From NCBI RefSeq assembly GCF_023716945.1, contig NZ_JAMQQF010000023.1:1-32030 (forward strand): a DNA stretch of 32,030 bases. Reading direction: 5' to 3'. This document shows, piece by piece, positions 1,820 to 9,350 of the stretch; position 1 is the first letter of the stretch, and each line of letters opens with the position of its first letter. The position numbers were made by a program, and so were the translations under genes. Origin of the DNA: Frankia sp. AiPs1. Lineage in GTDB: Bacteria > Actinomycetota > Actinomycetes > Frankiales > Frankiaceae. The notes under the pieces are model-generated. The model saw only the letters and a list, made by a program, of their open reading frames with translations, was not told the DNA's origin and did no database searches.

Positions 1820-2485
1820 ATGCCCTGGTCCATCGACGAAGGTCGCGTGATGCCGTTCCTGACGGCTGACGACCGTCGCAACGTGATGGCAGTGCTGTGG
1901 TCACGGCTGCAGAAGGACTCGACCGAGTCGCCGGAGGAGACCTCGGCCGAACTGCTGACCGCCGGGCTGCCCGGCACCTTCGCCAGGAGCCCGTCCGGCA
2001 AGTTCAAGGACTTCAAAGAAGGCAAGGACGGCAAGGACGGGAAGGACGGCAAAGACAGCAAGGACAGTAAGGACGGCAAGGAGGGGAAGGACAGCAAGGA
2101 ATGGAAGGATCTCAAGGACGGCAAGGACCTGAAGGACCTGAAGGACGGGAAGGAATTCAAGGACACCAAGGATTACGGAAAAGACACAAAAGATACCAAA
2201 GACGGTAAAGACCGGTGGGATCGGGCGGATCCGGGCGTTGGCGTGCCCACCACGCGCTTCCCGAACGACACGCCCAGCGGCTCACCCGTCGGCCCGCCCG
2301 GCGCCGAGTACCCGCCTGACCGGCGCACGAAGGACGGGAACCCGGCGGACGGTCACCCCGATGACGCCGAGTGGGCACGGGCGGCGGCGACCGGCCGCAC
2401 CGGCCACGATCCCGAGGACGTCGCCGCCACGCTCCGCGCCTCCCGGATCAACCGCTACCTGCGGCTGTCCGGCGTGGTGATCTGA
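1820..2485 (+). CDS. Lys-Asp/Glu triplet-repeat protein, candidate precursor of a modified peptide (RiPP-like)
   Basis: A 221-residue protein; the start at ATG 1820 is fixed by AAGGAGG at 1804-1810. Residues 1-60 form a leader-like region (MPWSIDEGRVMPFLTADDRR, then an amphipathic helix-like stretch and acidic S/E/T sequence). Residues 62-131 are 23 consecutive x-Lys-(Asp/Glu) triplets in which x is Gly, Ser, Thr, Leu, Phe or Trp, with one extra Tyr. Residues 132-221 are a Pro/Gly/Asp-rich tail ending in a basic segment (RASRINRYLRLSGVVI). There is no signal peptide or membrane segment. I recognise no named family. It heads a run of four genes encoding two ATP-grasp-related proteins and two 2-oxoglutarate-oxygenase-like enzymes, so the inferred role is substrate: a leader plus a repetitive core whose Lys amines and Asp/Glu carboxylates could be ligated or hydroxylated. 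A structural or metal/DNA-binding low-complexity protein is the alternative. The repeat segment is visibly less GC-rich than its flanks. Confidence 0.8.
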   Translation: MPWSIDEGRVMPFLTADDRRNVMAVLWSRLQKDSTESPEETSAELLTAGLPGTFARSPSGKFKDFKEGKDGKDGKDGKDSKDSKDGKEGKDSKEWKDLKDGKDLKDLKDGKEFKDTKDYGKDTKDTKDGKDRWDRADPGVGVPTTRFPNDTPSGSPVGPPGAEYPPDRRTKDGNPADGHPDDAEWARAAATGRTGHDPEDVAATLRASRINRYLRLSGVVI

Positions 2486-2497
2486 GCGAACGCCACG

Positions 2498-3430
2498 ATG
2501 ACCACCGAGACCGACGCCGCGGCGACCGCCTCCCACCCGCCGACAGCCCGGACCACACCCACGCCATCGACCACGCCCACGCCCACGCCATCGACCACGA
2601 CTGGCCTCACGTCCGCGCTGACCGAGGACGACCTGCTGATCGTCGCCGAGCCCGACGACGCGGTCGCCTCTTTCGTGGCCGAGTACCTGGACGAGGTCGG
2701 CCGGCGTGCCGTCGTCCTCGACCCCTTCCACGCGGCGCAACTGTTCACCGTCGCGGTGTCGGGCGGGTCCGCCCTCGTGACGCCCCGAGTGCCGATGTTG
2801 TTGCGGATTCCCCCGCCCCCGGTCGTCAGCGCCGGTGCGCGCCACGACGCGCAGTTCCAGTACCAGGAGTGCGTCGCCCAGCTGTGGGCTGCGGCCGCCC
2901 TTACCGACCTGCCCGTCGTGAACCGGCCGTCCGTCGTCGCATTCGGCACCGCCGTCTCCGGCTCGGCGGCCCGCACCGACCTGGCGGCCGGGCAACCGGT
3001 GAGTTCGGTCGAGGTCTTCTCCTCGACCTACCCCGACCCCGCGCGCCAGACCGACGAGGCGTGGTGGGTGCAGGACACCGTCACCCGGCAGACGACGCGC
3101 TGGCCGCAGCCGCCCGCGGCCGGCGGTCCGTTCCGGGCACGGTGGTCGGCGGCCGACCCGGTCTTTGAGGTCGTGGTGGTCCTCGCCGGGGCCGCCTGGC
3201 GATGCACGACCGCCGAGATCGACGACCTCGACCTGCCCGGCCGCAGCCTGGCGGTGGTCGAACGCCTCGGGCTCACCCTCGCCGCCCTGATCTGGCGGGT
3301 CGGCGACGACGGGGCCAGCGCCCACCTCGTCGACGTCGACCCGTTCCCGGGGCTCGACATGGTTCGCATGACCTGGCTCGGCCTCGGTCCGCATCTGCTC
3401 GCGGTCCTGTTCCCCGGATCGGCGGCCTGA
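2498..3430 (+). CDS. Degenerate ATP-grasp-like protein, paralogue-like partner of the downstream ligase
   Basis: 310 residues from ATG 2498, twelve bases after the repeat-protein stop; the ribosome-binding site is weak, suggesting coupling. Residues 18-36 are a Thr/Pro/Ser low-complexity stretch. The rest resembles the next protein in outline: an N-terminal domain with a 'LLRIPPPP' strand, a 'PVVNRPS' motif (residues 139-145, compare 'ANRPS' in the partner) and a C-terminal 'HLVDVDPFPGLD' that lines up with the partner's 'WVLEANPMPGYD'. The central ATP-grasp lysine motif (KPLSG in the partner) is not apparent, and the metal-binding Glu/Asn positions read Asp/Asp. I infer a diverged, possibly inactive ATP-grasp homologue that may form a complex with the ligase or bind the precursor. 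No direct family assignment is secure. Confidence 0.65.
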   Translation: MTTETDAAATASHPPTARTTPTPSTTPTPTPSTTTGLTSALTEDDLLIVAEPDDAVASFVAEYLDEVGRRAVVLDPFHAAQLFTVAVSGGSALVTPRVPMLLRIPPPPVVSAGARHDAQFQYQECVAQLWAAAALTDLPVVNRPSVVAFGTAVSGSAARTDLAAGQPVSSVEVFSSTYPDPARQTDEAWWVQDTVTRQTTRWPQPPAAGGPFRARWSAADPVFEVVVVLAGAAWRCTTAEIDDLDLPGRSLAVVERLGLTLAALIWRVGDDGASAHLVDVDPFPGLDMVRMTWLGLGPHLLAVLFPGSAA

Positions 3431-3431
3431 G

Positions 3432-4571
3432 GTGGAGAGTTCAGACAGCCGGGCCGAGCCGCCGCGCGGCGCAGGTGACGGCCCACCCGTCCACGGCACC
3501 GCGCCGATCTACGCGATCGGGCTGGGCTCGGACGGCACCTGGCGGCACTTCCTCGACGCGACGGGCCGGCACGGGGCCGGCGTCGTCGCGATCGACCTCG
3601 CCGACGTCGTGCGCACCGGCGACTGGCGGCTGGCGATTCCGGACGACGGAGCCAGTCGGCTCGTCACCGGCCAGCAGGCGGTCGACCTGGACCCGGCGGG
3701 CGGGTACTTCGTTCGGCTCGCCGACCTGTCCAGCCTGGAAGCCGTCCCGCGGCTGGCGGCCCGGTGGCGCGCGCTCGTCGGCGCTCTGGCAGCGTGGCTC
3801 GACCACGTGCCGGGGCCCGTCGCCAACCGGCCGAGCGCCTGGGCGGACAACGGCACGAAGCCGCTGCACGAGGCTCGACTCGCCCGGGCGGGCTTCTCGG
3901 TACCGGAGAGTCTGACCAGCTCCGACGGCGAGCGGCTGCGGACGTTCGCCGCGGCCGGACCGACGATCGTCAAGCCGCTGTCGGGAGTGCGCGCCCGAAC
4001 CCGACGCGTCGACCCGGCGGAGTTCACCGTGGCCGCCGGCTTCACCACCGGGCGGGGCCCGGTGCACCTCCAGCGGTACGTGGCGGGAGTGGACGTCCGC
4101 GTCCACATCTGCGGTGGTGCCGTCCACGCCCAGCAGATCGTTCGACGACGCCCCGACGGGGACGGCCAGGGCGCCGCGGCGGTCGACTACCGCGAACTCG
4201 ACGCCGCCGACCTCGAGTTCCGCGACGTCGACCTGCCCGGCGCCCTGGTGAGGCTGCTCGTCGCCGCGACCGCCGAGTCCGGCCTGCTGCTCGCCGGCTG
4301 GGACCTGCGTGTCGACGGGGACCGGTACTGGGTGCTGGAGGCGAACCCGATGCCCGGCTACGACTGGTACGACCGCCGGGCCGGCGGCGCCGTCACCGCC
4401 TCCTTGGTCGACCTGCTCACCCGCCGCCCAGCCGTCTCCGAACCCGCCATCACCCGGCCCACCGTCGACCGGCCCACCGTCGACCAGCCCACCGTCGACC
4501 AGCCGGCCGTCGACCACGCCGCACCTGCCACGACGACAGCCACCGGACCCGTTGCGAGGAGGATGGGATGA
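3432..4571 (+). CDS. ATP-grasp ligase (RimK/glutathione-synthetase-like), candidate peptide-modifying enzyme
   Basis: 379 residues from GTG 3432, one base after the upstream stop, so translation is probably coupled. The ATP-grasp fold is indicated by 'ANRPSAWADNGTKPLHEARL' (131-150), the nucleotide-binding lysine in 'IVKPLSGVR' (Lys181), 'YVAGVDVRVHICGG' (217-229), 'LAGWDLRVDGDRYW' with Asp291, and the metal-binding 'LEANPMPGYD' (Glu303, Asn305). Such enzymes activate a carboxylate as an acyl phosphate and join it to an amine, hydroxyl or thiol. With a Lys-Asp repeat protein in the same cluster, side-chain amide formation or addition of an amino acid to the repeats is an attractive inference. 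Residues 341-363 are a PTVDxP repeat encoded by a 15-bp minisatellite, followed by a basic tail, probably disordered. The stop overlaps the next start by four bases (ATGA). Confidence 0.85.
   Translation: MESSDSRAEPPRGAGDGPPVHGTAPIYAIGLGSDGTWRHFLDATGRHGAGVVAIDLADVVRTGDWRLAIPDDGASRLVTGQQAVDLDPAGGYFVRLADLSSLEAVPRLAARWRALVGALAAWLDHVPGPVANRPSAWADNGTKPLHEARLARAGFSVPESLTSSDGERLRTFAAAGPTIVKPLSGVRARTRRVDPAEFTVAAGFTTGRGPVHLQRYVAGVDVRVHICGGAVHAQQIVRRRPDGDGQGAAAVDYRELDAADLEFRDVDLPGALVRLLVAATAESGLLLAGWDLRVDGDRYWVLEANPMPGYDWYDRRAGGAVTASLVDLLTRRPAVSEPAITRPTVDRPTVDQPTVDQPAVDHAAPATTTATGPVARRMG
4456..4515 (+). repeat. 15-bp in-frame tandem repeat, four copies, near the ATP-grasp C-terminus
   Basis: Units 4456-4470, 4471-4485, 4486-4500 and 4501-4515 follow (G/A)GCC(C/G)(A/G)CCGTCGACC; the first two are identical. 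The unit encodes the repeated Pro-Thr-Val-Asp-(Arg/Gln) tail of the ligase. Being a multiple of three, copy-number change would not break the frame. Confidence 0.9.
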
Positions 4572-5347
4572 CCACGATCACGACGACGGCCACGACCACG
4601 ACCACAGCCGCGGGGACGACCGCGGCCAGGTCCACGGCTCGACCGGACATCTCGACCGTGCGGCTGCTGTCGGTGCAGGAGGCCGAGGAGGTCCGGGACG
4701 CGGTGTACCGGGAGCGGCCGAGCTGGATCGAGCGAGGTGCCGGCTTCCACACCCTCGGCACGCCCAGTTACCTCGATCTCACGCCGAACTCGCAGGCGGG
4801 CGACTACCACGATCGCGCCGCGCGGCACCGGCCGCTGCTCTGGGATCGGTTCGGCTGGCTCTACAACCGGCTCGGGGCCGCACTCGTCGACATCCTCGAC
4901 GCCCCGGTCCGCTACACCGAGCGGTATGCGCTGCCCGGGTTTCACGTGTGGTTCACCGAGGCCGTGTTCACCCGCCCACGCGCATCCGTGCACTTCGACC
5001 TCCAGTACCGGCTCTTCGACTGGCCCGGTGAGGTCGACGCCAGTCGGGTGTTCTCGTTCACCCTGCCGCTGCGGGTGCCCGCAGCCGGCGGCGGGCTCAA
5101 CACCTGGCCGGTCAGCCACGCCACGTTCCTGTCGGCGATGCGGCGGGATCTGATCGACAGTGTCGGCGACCTGCGCCGCTTCCACCCGCTTCAGTACGTG
5201 CCGTACAGCCCCGGTGAGCTCGTCGTGCACTCCGGGCTGCTGCTGCACCAGATCGCCCCGTCGGTGTCGGTGCGTCCGGGGGACGAGCGGCTGACCCTCC
5301 AGGGGCACGGCATCTGGAGCGGCGACTCCTGGCTGCTCTACTGGTGA
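4568..5347 (+). CDS. Fe(II)/2-oxoglutarate-dependent oxygenase-like protein
   Basis: 259 residues from ATG 4568; the start overlaps the ligase stop by four bases and is preceded by AGGAGG. Residues 1-19 are nearly pure Thr/Ala, an odd low-complexity leader. The body has the pieces of a double-stranded beta-helix oxygenase: a His-x-Asp motif in 'SVHFDLQYRLF' (His142, Asp144), a distal 'GELVVHSGLLLHQIAPS' where His227 (less likely His221) would complete the iron triad, and Arg241 in 'DERLTLQGHG' placed to bind 2-oxoglutarate. The spacing fits prolyl-hydroxylase or phytanoyl-type enzymes, but I do not recognise the exact family. Operon position suggests it hydroxylates or otherwise oxidises the Lys-Asp repeat protein. 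The substrate is inferred only. Confidence 0.75.
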   Translation: MTTITTTATTTTTAAGTTAARSTARPDISTVRLLSVQEAEEVRDAVYRERPSWIERGAGFHTLGTPSYLDLTPNSQAGDYHDRAARHRPLLWDRFGWLYNRLGAALVDILDAPVRYTERYALPGFHVWFTEAVFTRPRASVHFDLQYRLFDWPGEVDASRVFSFTLPLRVPAAGGGLNTWPVSHATFLSAMRRDLIDSVGDLRRFHPLQYVPYSPGELVVHSGLLLHQIAPSVSVRPGDERLTLQGHGIWSGDSWLLYW

Positions 5348-5391
5348 AACTGCTCCACTGGCGAAGCTGATCCGCTGGTGAAGCTGCCCGG
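5341..5391 (+). repeat. 17-bp tandem repeat, three copies, between the two oxygenase genes
   Basis: Units 5341-5357, 5358-5374 and 5375-5391 follow CTGG(T/C)GAA(G/A)CTG followed by five variable bases. The first unit contains the TGA stop of the upstream oxygenase gene. The repeat fills nearly all of the spacer, so the distance to the next ribosome-binding site (5401-5406) depends on copy number. Confidence 0.85.
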
Positions 5392-5413
5392 ACCGGGGAA
5401 GGGGAGCAGTCGG

Positions 5414-6223
5414 ATGGCGGTGCTGACGGCGGCGGATCGCGACGCGTTCGTCGAACGCGGCTTCTGCGTGCTGCGGGCGGCGTTCACCGCCACCCAGGCG
5501 GCCGCGGCCCGTGGGGCGGTCTGGCGGCGGATGACGCAGAAGGCCGGCATCCGCGAGGACGACCCGAGCACCTGGCCGCCGGGCTACGACATCGAGGAGC
5601 GGCTTGCGGTGCCGGAGGTGCTCGCCTGCTTCACCGACCCGCTCGCCCACGCGATCGAGGAACTCGTCGGTCCCGGCCGGTGGCGCGGCGAGCGCGGCTG
5701 GGGGTTCTGGCCGGTGAACTTCAGTCACGGCGCCGGCGACCCGCGTGCGGTGCCGACCGCCGGCTGGCACGTCGACGGCAACTGGTTCCGGCACACCCTC
5801 GACGCGTCCCGGCAGGGTCTGCTGGTCATCGGCCTGTTCTCGGACGTCGAGCCGGGCGGCGGCGCGACGCTGGTGGCGGAGGGATCCCACCGCCGCACCG
5901 CGCGAGTGCTCGCCGAGCATCCCGGCGGCCTGACTCACCTGGAGCTGTTCGACGCCGTCCTCGCCGAGCCCATCGGTACCTTCACCGAGTTGACCGGAGC
6001 GGCCGGGGACGTGGTCCTCGCCCACCCGTTCCTGTTCCACACCCGCGGGTTCAAACGAACCGGATCACCCAGGTTCATCAGCAACACCGAGGCAGGGCTG
6101 CGCGCTCCCCTGCGCCTCGACCGTGCGGACGACGCCGATTACTCGGTGCTCGAACGCTCGATCCGCGCCGCCCTCGCCGCCCCGCCCCCGACCTTCACCG
6201 CCCCCCTGCGCTGCCGCTTCTGA
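5414..6223 (+). CDS. Phytanoyl-CoA dioxygenase (PhyH)-family Fe(II)/2-oxoglutarate oxygenase
   Basis: 269 residues. The start at ATG 5414 is chosen because GGGGAG lies seven bases upstream; the in-frame GTG at 5378 lies inside the spacer repeat. It is a typical PhyH-like protein: N-terminal 'FVERGFCVLRAAF', the iron-binding 'GWHVDGNWF' (His119, Asp121), 'LFSDVEPGGGATLVAEGSHR' (141-160), and 'GDVVLAHPFLFHTRG' with distal His209, followed by Arg220 for 2-oxoglutarate. Members hydroxylate small molecules, lipids or peptide side chains. It is the last gene of the cluster and differs clearly from the oxygenase before it, so two separate oxidations are likely. A strong hairpin follows twelve bases after the stop. 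Confidence 0.88.
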   Translation: MAVLTAADRDAFVERGFCVLRAAFTATQAAAARGAVWRRMTQKAGIREDDPSTWPPGYDIEERLAVPEVLACFTDPLAHAIEELVGPGRWRGERGWGFWPVNFSHGAGDPRAVPTAGWHVDGNWFRHTLDASRQGLLVIGLFSDVEPGGGATLVAEGSHRRTARVLAEHPGGLTHLELFDAVLAEPIGTFTELTGAAGDVVLAHPFLFHTRGFKRTGSPRFISNTEAGLRAPLRLDRADDADYSVLERSIRAALAAPPPTFTAPLRCRF

Positions 6224-6960: not shown

Positions 6961-7884
6961 GTGAGCGGCCTGGACGGGTCCCGGCTGGTGTTCGGCGCCG
7001 GCGGTGCGGTGAGCGGGCTGTCCGCGTCGCAGACCCTGGACCTCGCCCAGAGCGCCGACGAGCTCGGTTACGACCTGTTCAGCCTGAGCGACCACCTGCA
7101 CAGCCGGCGCCAGACCGTCGAGCCGCTGGTCGCCCTGAGCTGGCTGGCCGGCCAGACCCGCCGCATCGAGCTGGCCACGAACGTCCTGGGGCTGCCCTAC
7201 CGGGCGCCGGCGGTGGTCGCGAAGACGGCCGAGACGCTGGACCGGCTCTCCGGCGGCCGGTTCGTCCTCGGCCTGGGCGGGGGCGGCTACGACGAGGAGT
7301 TCCGCGCCTTCGGCCTGCCCGACCGGACCCCCGGGCAGAAGATCACCGGCCAGCGCGAGGCCATCGGGATCATCCGCGGACTCTGGGCGAACGAGTCGAC
7401 CACCGTGCGCGGCCGCGAGTTCTCCGTCGACGACGCCCGCATCGAGCCTCGCCCCGACCATCCGATCCCGATCTGGCTCGGCTCGTACGGACCGCGGGCG
7501 CTCGCGCTGACCGGTGAGCTCGCCGACGGCTGGCTGCCATCCGTGGGCCGGATCGGCCTCGAGGGCGCCCGCCGGATGCGCCAGTCGGTGCTGACGGCCG
7601 CCCGCGACGCAGGCCGCGATCCCGCCGCGATCACCTGCGCCTGCAACGTGATCGTGCGTGTCGGGGCGCCGGCGCAGCCGGACTCGGGCGCGGTGACCGG
7701 CGGCGTCCAGGAGGTGATCGACCAGCTCCTGCAGATCGTGGGGGTCGGCTTCACCGCGCTGCTGCTGGCCATCCCGACCGTCGCCGAACAGGAGGTCGTG
7801 GCCCGCGACATCATCCCGGCCGTCCGCGCCGAGGTGGCCGCCCGCGGCCTGCCACCCGCCCACCTCGGCGACGACCGCCGGTAA
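6961..7884 (+). CDS. LLM-class (F420-dependent type) oxidoreductase
   Basis: 307 residues from GTG 6961. The frame stays open back to a TTG at 6856, but the extra 35 residues are Arg/His-rich and unlike the family, so I prefer the GTG even though its ribosome-binding site is weak. The luciferase-like TIM barrel is evident: 'LAQSADELGYDLFSLSDHL' (24-42), 'RIELATNVLGLPYRAPAVVA' (60-79), 'LDRLSGGRFVLGLGGGGYDEEF' region (about 84-105), 'IPIWLGSYGPRALALTGELA' (about 170-190) and 'DGWLPS'. Such enzymes use F420 or FMN to oxidise or reduce diverse substrates. The substrate is unknown; probable control by the divergent MarR protein suggests a xenobiotic or catabolic role. Confidence 0.88.
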   Translation: MSGLDGSRLVFGAGGAVSGLSASQTLDLAQSADELGYDLFSLSDHLHSRRQTVEPLVALSWLAGQTRRIELATNVLGLPYRAPAVVAKTAETLDRLSGGRFVLGLGGGGYDEEFRAFGLPDRTPGQKITGQREAIGIIRGLWANESTTVRGREFSVDDARIEPRPDHPIPIWLGSYGPRALALTGELADGWLPSVGRIGLEGARRMRQSVLTAARDAGRDPAAITCACNVIVRVGAPAQPDSGAVTGGVQEVIDQLLQIVGVGFTALLLAIPTVAEQEVVARDIIPAVRAEVAARGLPPAHLGDDRR

Positions 7885-7982: not shown

Positions 7983-9350
7983 ATGGCTGCATCGGATGCC
8001 CGCGACACGGAGTTAAAGGACGACGACCGCGTCATCGCCTGGCTGGAGTCCCTGCTCGGCGGCCGGGTCGTCTCGTGGGAGCGGCAGCCGAGGTGGCGGC
8101 CCATGTGGTTCGTCGACATCGACCGCGGCGGCGCCACCGAACGCGTCGTCGTGCGCGGCGAACGGTCCGACACGGCTCTGATCCTCCCGCTCGAACACGA
8201 GATGCTGTTCCAGCGACTTCTCGACGAGCACGGTATCCCGGTCCCGCACGTGCACGGCTGGTGCGACGAACCGAGGGCGTACGCGATGGCCGCCGTCCCC
8301 GGCCGCCCCGACTTCGCCGGCACCACCGACGAGCAGCGCCGCACGGTGGTCGACGAGTATCTGCAGGCACTGGCGCGGATGCACCAGCTCCCGGTCGGGC
8401 CGTTCAAGGCTGCCGGGGTCATCTCCGGGACGTCGGCGGCCGACTCCGCGATGATCGGAGTACGCCGGTTCGAGCAGCACTACCGGACGAGCAAGGTGCG
8501 CCCCGACCCGCTGATGGAATTCGTCCTCGGCTGGCTGCGCCGCCACCCGCTGCCCGCGTCCGACCGCGAGGCGCCCATCGTCTGGGACTCCGGCCAGTTC
8601 CACCACGCCGACGGCCACCTCGTGGCCCTCGTCGACGTCGAAATCGGCCACATCGGCGACCCGATGATGGACCTCGCCGCCTGGCGGATGCGCGACACCG
8701 TCATCCCCTACGGCGAGTTCACCACGCTGTACGACCGGTACGCCGAGCTGACCGGCCGGCCCGTCGACCTCGCGGCCATCCAGTGGCACCACCTGTTCTT
8801 CACCCTCACCAACCAGCTGTCCTTCCACGGCCCGCTGGCCCGTCCGATCCTCGACACCGACTACATGACCTACGCGCAGTGGGTCAGCGAGACGAACCTG
8901 CACGCCGTCGAGACCCTGGCCGAGTACCTCGGGATCGACCTCGAACCCGTGGAGATCCCCGAGCCGGTCGCCTCCCCCGTCTCCATCCCGCACCAGCACC
9001 TGTCCCGCTCGCTGCGGTCGATCTCGGTCGAGGATCCGTACGTCGCCTACCAGGTTCGCATCGCCTTCCGCCTGGCCCGCCACCTCGAACGCGCCGACCA
9101 GATCGGCGCGGCCGTCACCGAGGCCGACCGGGAGGACCTCGCCCGCCTCGTCGGCCACGCGCCGAAGAGTTGGGACGAGTGCGAGGCGGCGCTGGAGAAC
9201 TTCGTTCTGGCCGACGAGGGACGCCACGACGCCGAACTCGTCGTCCTGTTCCACCGCCGGTGGGCGCGCTACAAGGCCCTGATGGGCCCCGCCGGCTCCG
9301 CCATGGCCGCCCACCACACGATGCAGCCCTTCGGCCGCTGGCTGGGCTAG
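7983..9350 (+). CDS. Aminoglycoside phosphotransferase (APH)-like kinase-fold protein with altered catalytic loop
   Basis: 455 residues. Start ATG 7983 lies seven bases after GGAGG (7971-7975); the nearer ATG at 7977 is too close to it. The N-terminal half follows the APH/phosphotransferase layout (VVRGE as the ATP-lysine strand region, LEHEMLFQRLLDEHGIPVPHV helix region, YAMAAVPGRPDFAG hinge). In the catalytic loop the usual HGDxxxxN reads 'VWDSGQFHH': the Asp is kept, the His is replaced and Asn appears as Gln. The metal-binding segment is 'ALVDVEIGHIGDPMMDLAAW', and Asp-x-Glu variants occur in this family. A C-terminal helical extension of about 140 residues resembles that of acyl-CoA-dehydrogenase-linked phosphotransferases. 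The true substrate is unknown and antibiotic resistance should not be assumed. Confidence 0.8.
   Translation: MAASDARDTELKDDDRVIAWLESLLGGRVVSWERQPRWRPMWFVDIDRGGATERVVVRGERSDTALILPLEHEMLFQRLLDEHGIPVPHVHGWCDEPRAYAMAAVPGRPDFAGTTDEQRRTVVDEYLQALARMHQLPVGPFKAAGVISGTSAADSAMIGVRRFEQHYRTSKVRPDPLMEFVLGWLRRHPLPASDREAPIVWDSGQFHHADGHLVALVDVEIGHIGDPMMDLAAWRMRDTVIPYGEFTTLYDRYAELTGRPVDLAAIQWHHLFFTLTNQLSFHGPLARPILDTDYMTYAQWVSETNLHAVETLAEYLGIDLEPVEIPEPVASPVSIPHQHLSRSLRSISVEDPYVAYQVRIAFRLARHLERADQIGAAVTEADREDLARLVGHAPKSWDECEAALENFVLADEGRHDAELVVLFHRRWARYKALMGPAGSAMAAHHTMQPFGRWLG

Follow-up and report, generated by a model that had tools for sequence, protein, structure and literature searches.

What is made by a gene cluster in which a protein with a long array of Lys-Asp triplets is encoded beside relatives of a peptide ligase and of two oxygenases? 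In this work we focused on such a cluster in Frankia sp. AiPs1. It lies within a window of 32,030 nucleotides, that is, the whole stretch of DNA that was analysed, and its five genes, here named A to E, all stand on the + strand. As an original prediction for this DNA had stated, they are co-directional and tightly packed, with C and D overlapping by 4 bases. We give a probability of about 0.6 to a graspetide-type modification of the whole repeat protein A, in which C would join Asp and Glu residues of the array to Lys and the oxygenases would hydroxylate it. The parts of the cluster are as follows.

1804-1810, + strand: AAGGAGG, ribosome-binding-site-like motif 5' of A, read from the sequence
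1820-2485, + strand: A, K-(D/E) triplet-repeat protein of 221 amino acids (aa), presumed substrate, from its sequence and conserved ends
2003-2212, + strand: array within A, 23 x-K-(D/E) triplets in codons 62-131, by triplet count
2498-3430, + strand: B, 310 aa, presumed partner with a degenerate graspetide-synthetase-like fold, from a predicted model and a variable Mg-binding Glu position
3432-4571, + strand: C, graspetide-synthetase-type ATP-grasp ligase with a GTG start, 379 aa, from a PsnB profile match, TIGR04187 and motif residues
4568-5347, + strand: D, WelO5-like Fe(II)/2-oxoglutarate oxygenase with an intact HxD motif, 259 aa, from profile, relatives and predicted fold
5414-6223, + strand: E, PhyH-type Fe(II)/2-oxoglutarate oxygenase, 269 aa, an optional member, from a PhyH match and a leucine hydroxylase profile match

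Protein A contains 25 K-(D/E) dipeptides in total, 23 of them in the array, and the 23 triplets originally described, preceded by some 60 N-terminal residues, were recovered by count. Nineteen triplets follow one another from K63 to K117 and, after a slip of one residue, four more run from K121 to K130. Across all six frames, the window has K-(D/E)-x runs of 19 and 4 units, both belonging to this array, and otherwise only runs of 1. In A of the Frankia and Streptomyces type both flanks of the array are conserved, an N-terminal segment on one side and on the other a C-terminal tail that reads LRASRxNRYLRxxGVVI. A of the window matched no Pfam family at E values up to 1, Frankia_peptide (PF14407) thus being unmatched. 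At the DNA level the array is a 9-base tandem repeat of 18.7 copies with 74% matches, so that its length can change by slippage.

The repeat protein and the enzymes occur together. When A was searched in 97 genomes, 13 matched at E values up to 0.001, five over the full length (8.6e-20 or better) and the remaining eight by weak partial matches only. B and D were each found in five of 35 Frankiaceae genomes, the same five that carry full-length A, and C, which matched in 14 of the 35 at E values up to 0.001, reached 1.1e-119 or better only in these five. E lies near D at four of the five Frankiaceae loci. At one of them (L017; loci are cited by L numbers and genomes by G numbers) a transposase-like gene, recognised by eye, separates D from E, and at L018 no E match was found within the stretch examined. 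The system is seldom met with: of 396 genomes sampled evenly across the phylum, with 7 candidates scored per genome, only that of the window had D, besides one weak partial match (7.4e-4) elsewhere.

When the D alignment was used, by way of two short peptide patterns, for a wide scan of 84,980 species genomes, 16 loci were obtained, two known from Frankiaceae and 14 further ones. In eleven of these 14, overlapping K-(D/E)-x-K-(D/E) motifs occur three or more times in one frame (five Streptomyces, Microtetraspora, Streptosporangium, Myxococcus, and three assemblies, one deltaproteobacterial, one of Geodermatophilaceae and one of Ilumatobacteraceae). The remaining three, which have no such frame, are cyanobacterial, and there a single fused frame encodes C and D (L058, 7086-8714; L059, 7026-8720; L064, 6558-8186). 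Two of the three have, before B, a short open reading frame (ORF) with the motifs KEASD, KDASD and KEACD (KxxxD), starting with a stretch that by eye resembles a signal peptide. Among 96 genomes of the Myxococcus family nine matched the D profile, two of them strongly, namely the genome of L061 and G661, whose locus L114 holds A, B, C, D and E. The seven other D relatives of this family are weak (1.5e-21 to 4.0e-11) and stand in another context (L115 to L121, around base 8000); A, B, C and E were unmatched at 1e-4 in the 16 kb around each of them.

In all, 20 loci with a close D were obtained: five from Frankiaceae, 14 from the wide scan and one from Myxococcaceae. A K-(D/E)-rich protein is encoded near D at 17 of the 20 (in Actinomycetota, Myxococcota and the deltaproteobacterial assembly), the KxxxD-bearing ORF is found at two, and at one no precursor was found. 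C is present at 19 of the 20 loci, the contig of L063 being short, and B or a B-like gene likewise at 19. The A profile matched 22 of 150 relatives of G051, full length in two, G006 and G513 (L054), both of which bear the cluster. A repeat protein spread widely without the enzymes, or enzymes kept without any repeat protein, was therefore not the pattern encountered in the Frankiaceae, at the 20 loci or among the relatives of G051. The association of A with the enzymes is strong, and the system is conserved in several phyla.

The array itself is also under constraint. In three close pairs (L055/L017, L051/L057 and window/L015) the K-(D/E) sites showed 94 identical codons, 13 synonymous changes and 1 nonsynonymous change (D/E), as compared with 53, 8 and 7, respectively, at the other sites (Fisher two-sided P 0.035). 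The K and D/E codons are thus constrained. At the 17 loci that have an array, each repeat protein contains 12 to 36 K-(D/E) units. In L060, L061 and L114 the N-terminal region of the precursor is unlike that of the Frankia type.

Which enzyme could act on such an array? Judged by its sequence, C is a relative of the graspetide synthetases with intact motif residues, and the original proposal of a graspetide-type ligase holds for it. Its nearest solved structure was PsnB, the plesiocin synthetase (4.6e-40 by profile), whose DFR motif aligns with DYR of C, and the RimK structures ranked below the graspetide synthetases. K143, K181, D221, R223, D252, Y253, R254 (the last three forming DYR), D291, E303 and N305 are identical in all 16 C proteins, and TIGR04187 matched all 16 at E values up to 0.01, the best at 2.2e-43 and C of the window at 8.3e-21. 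The locus thus has the parts by which graspetide clusters are recognised, that is, an adjacent precursor gene with Lys donors and Asp/Glu acceptors, a ligase of the ATP-grasp type, which in the window scores under the curated cut-off, and within it a DFR-type motif with ATP- and Mg-binding residues.

Two ATP-grasp-related proteins had been predicted; C stands as an intact ligase, whereas B looks degenerate, which would leave C as the sole convincing intact ATP-grasp enzyme of the cluster. B alone matched no Pfam or NCBIfam family, solved structures gave no credible match to its sequence, and hhalign of five B with five C proteins gave no real similarity (probability 1.2%). Its predicted model (predicted local distance difference test, pLDDT, 73; predicted template modelling score, pTM, 0.60) is closest in fold to PruB, PsnB and MdnC (Foldseek E value 4.4e-9, template modelling score about 0.5). 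In addition, the B-like gene of L060 was matched by C of the window (3.7e-8 in the locus) and by the C profile (2.1e-5 in the genome). Because of this model and this match, B is probably related to C. The B-like genes of L060 and L061 were grouped with Frankia B by position, an NRP motif and 18% identity. The catalytic motif residues are lost in B: the position facing the Mg-binding Glu of C (E303), a correspondence obtained by pairing VDVDPFPG with LEANPMPG, is occupied by D, E, L, H, M, N, V or R. Such free variation disfavours B as a second active ligase, and from its model it looks like a degenerate ligase-like protein. PsnB, PruB and MdnC, whose precursors are short multi-core peptides, share motif residues and fold with C and the fold with B, which unlike them has no conserved Mg-binding Glu position.

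The two distinct oxygenases of the original prediction are indeed both of the Fe(II)/2-oxoglutarate type, but the second, E, is present at only 11 of the 20 loci. D alone matched no relevant Pfam or NCBIfam family; it was recognised by profile, by its relatives, of which 7 of 18 D proteins matched Pfam WelO5, and by its predicted fold (pLDDT 88.5, pTM 0.84), for which WelO5 was the best match (3.6e-11). H142 and D144 (HxD), H227 and R241 are invariant in all 18 D proteins, and H221 is kept in 17. D shares its predicted fold with the WelO5 halogenases, which have Gly166 at the place of the Asp of HxD (title of entry 5iqu); since D keeps this Asp in 18 of 18, hydroxylation appears likelier than halogenation. 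A second, diverged D (40% identity), in which Q replaces H221, lies on the opposite strand near the cluster at L054 (3881-4603). E, with its motifs intact, scored above the PhyH cut-off (27.8 versus 22 bits, 3.7e-6), and its nearest solved relatives by profile were a leucine hydroxylase (2.6e-4) and, weakly, an ectoine hydroxylase (0.064). Close kinship of D and E found no support on comparison, and PF13640 matched neither D nor E of the window nor any of the 18 D relatives. At L016 (2347-5982) and L017 (530-4198) a large gene, which by eye reads as TIR + NB-ARC + TPR, converges on E.

We propose that A would be the dedicated multi-site substrate of C, which would activate Asp/Glu side chains of the array and join them to Lys side chains by isopeptide bonds; a staple from Lys to Asp/Glu is likely. 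The most likely pairing would be that of K at position i with D/E at i+4, so that neighbouring staples would overlap along the chain. B, its catalytic residues lost, may serve as a partner or scaffold, and Lys or Asp residues in the array would be hydroxylated by D, together with E where present. No small peptide would be excised, the product remaining a large protein, and modified A would probably be a stiff, protease-resistant rod. If this is right, graspetide chemistry would no longer be confined to small peptides but would take in entire repeat proteins; x-K-D would be a new substrate code, an active ligase would be paired with a pseudo-ligase, and long peptides could be stapled in a genetically encoded way.

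The closest characterised case is corallotide of graspetide group 15 (CorA to CorD). In the parts of PMC13097080 drawn on here, KxxxD isopeptides are formed in a precursor of ~22 kDa before 5-hydroxylation of Lys, and the ligase is activated by the oxygenase; its dependence on a partner protein we count as a likeness to the present system. Both systems have a large precursor, a TIGR04187 ligase, a 2-oxoglutarate-Fe oxygenase and K(i)/D(i+4) motifs. Thus KxxxD is found here as in corallotide, whereas the single PF13640 oxygenase of corallotide is replaced by the WelO5-like D and often the PhyH-type E, and its beta-lactamase-like CorD has no counterpart among the genes from A to E in the window. 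The KxxxD motifs of corallotide number five and stand apart from one another, in contrast to the at least 12 K-(D/E) units in a continuous array at the 17 loci, and in this comparison the pseudo-ligase-like B is present only in the system described here. Two oxygenases also occur in a graspetide cluster of group 18, likened here by description only, in which SmaO and SmaX turn an Asp close to the N-terminus of a linear peptide into aminomalonate, and long repeat precursors are mentioned for groups 34 and 35, which may include the present proteins (same parts of PMC13097080). Loci with a truncated ATP-grasp protein are mentioned in the part of PMC8939145 consulted, a survey that started from precursor candidates of up to 150 aa, shorter than A. 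The gene set was not described in the titles or abstract openings of the literature searched, most subscription journals lying outside it.

With regard to the i+4 spacing, K is followed by D/E at +4 in 23 instances in the core of the window, as a consequence of the triplet register. The arrays of L062 and L063 are off this register, and in 5000 shuffles that kept K-(D/E) pairs together, with twelve offsets examined, their observed +4 count was reached 36 and 3 times, respectively, the +3 offset being avoided in both. Several points weigh against the proposed stapling. Exact triplets enrich all period-3 offsets equally and therefore do not single out i+4. The arrays of L062 and L063, being alike, do not count as two independent cases, +4 is one of twelve offsets compared, and L063 has an excess also at -2 (73 of 5000 shuffles). 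In the short cyanobacterial arrays of L058 and L064 the +4 excess was not significant (1968 and 502 of 5000), and L059 has B, C and D, with no precursor found. The codon comparison comprises few changes, 29 in the three pairs; the wide scan relied on two short D peptide patterns and would miss loci with a diverged D; and C of the window falls far under the TIGR04187 cut-off (74.5 versus 350 bits).

A further point against it is that the RimK-type glutamate ligase model TIGR00768 also matched all 16 C proteins (best 2e-17), with RimK structures among the profile matches. C could then be a RimK-like amino-acid ligase which, without forming rings, extends A by amino acids, either on Asp/Glu side chains or at its conserved C-terminus, the oxygenases decorating the added or neighbouring residues. 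The conserved C-terminal tail of the Frankia- and Streptomyces-type A would suit such an enzyme, but this tail is missing from L060, L061, L062 and the cyanobacterial candidates, in which K with D/E persists, and the matches of C to TIGR04187 and PsnB are stronger; we consider this explanation unlikely. It is also conceivable, though we find it quite improbable, that the array stays unmodified and, as a charged domain of disordered or rod-like shape, recruits the enzymes, C, D and E acting on another peptide or on the termini of A. The conserved N- and C-terminal segments of A agree with this, as does the binding of all corallotide enzymes to the N-terminal region of the precursor (in the parts of PMC13097080 drawn on here). 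These segments, however, vary by lineage while K-(D/E) persists, and inspection of the clusters, short of a systematic search, showed no further small ORF that is conserved.

The tandem repeat in the DNA and a weak resemblance of the array to the collagen-like adhesin model NF038329 (5.2e-8, 32.2 bits versus a cut-off of 325) could finally point to a collagen-like or simple low-complexity expansion that came to lie beside unrelated enzymes by chance. This was already disfavoured and seems highly improbable: the linkage with the enzymes recurs in several classes, the K and D/E codons are constrained, and the x residues are mixed, as in FGFHNFWLTRSFTSFF of L017, rather than Gly throughout. A collagen-like Gly-x-y repeat was rejected, since Gly does not occupy every third position.

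For the possible use of a stapled A, the gene context of three clusters, in the deltaproteobacterial assembly (L060), Myxococcus (L061) and the Myxococcus-family genome (L114), is of interest. At L061 a baseplate-wedge gene (phrog_6, 1.9e-31) and a gp25-like gene (phrog_975, 1.1e-5) precede an ORF of 771 aa, which is directly followed by the K-D gene. L060 has the same gene order (phrog_6, 2.2e-36) and, farther upstream on the contig, a tail-sheath-like gene (phrog_23, 1.1e-10; L104), and at L114 the order is baseplate, 772-aa ORF, K-D gene, B and C. The K-D gene, B and C thus close a run of contractile-tail-like genes (L060, 10478-16695, with L104, 7182-8348; L061, 7432-12484; L114, 1915-6522). 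The K-D gene occupies a place at which tail-fibre genes are often found, and this position beside contractile-tail genes leads to its reading as a structural rod. Solved baseplate proteins gave weak support for the assignment at L060 and L061, Pfam marked the tail-like genes with a Baseplate_J match only, under the cut-off, and PF04984 (sheath) left the contigs of the tail-adjoining clusters unmarked. On this gene evidence a complete particle would be a candidate at most.

Of six cluster-bearing genomes, two (those with L053 and L056) had no match to PF04984 and four had matches on contigs other than that of the cluster, so that a contractile tail as universal partner is unsupported. Beside the window and the other actinobacterial loci, where gene starts were read by eye, no tail genes were recognised. 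A literature search for contractile injection systems with ATP-grasp enzymes, at title and abstract level, gave none. What is new here, three K-D clusters beside contractile-tail genes, suggests a stapled structural rod and would, if true, link graspetide-type chemistry to such gene clusters. The fuller picture is a tentative one, and we hold it as rather doubtful: a hydroxylated i to i+4 isopeptide ladder would serve contractile phage-tail-like particles as a fibre or stalk in Myxococcota and the deltaproteobacterium, and would form other rods, intracellular or exported, in Actinomycetota and cyanobacteria. For Actinomycetota an intracellular product, as first supposed, is plausible, since the cluster showed no recognisable transporter or protease gene; the cyanobacterial candidates, however, start with a signal-peptide-like stretch, and three homologues stand beside tail genes.

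At L063 (130-1113 and 1095-1907) a SagD-type YcaO gene (8.6e-75) and a SagB-like gene, the latter recognised by eye, adjoin D and the K-(D/E)-rich ORF, which suggests a mixed azole and K-D pathway.

At the cluster of the window, a search for promoters found none, and terminator candidates were no better than shuffles. Upstream of A lies the following remnant.

1419-1672, + strand: broken remnant of a luciferase-like monooxygenase (LLM) gene, residues 4-55 at 65% identity and residues 57-81 in a second frame

A luciferase-like monooxygenase gene longer than this remnant stands directly 5' of A at 9 of the 20 loci, and the window and L015 have a remnant in its place. A second luciferase-like monooxygenase frame is found 3' of the cluster in the window (6961-7881; 35% identity to the LLM query), and a frame similar to it lies nearby at L015 (2761-3669).

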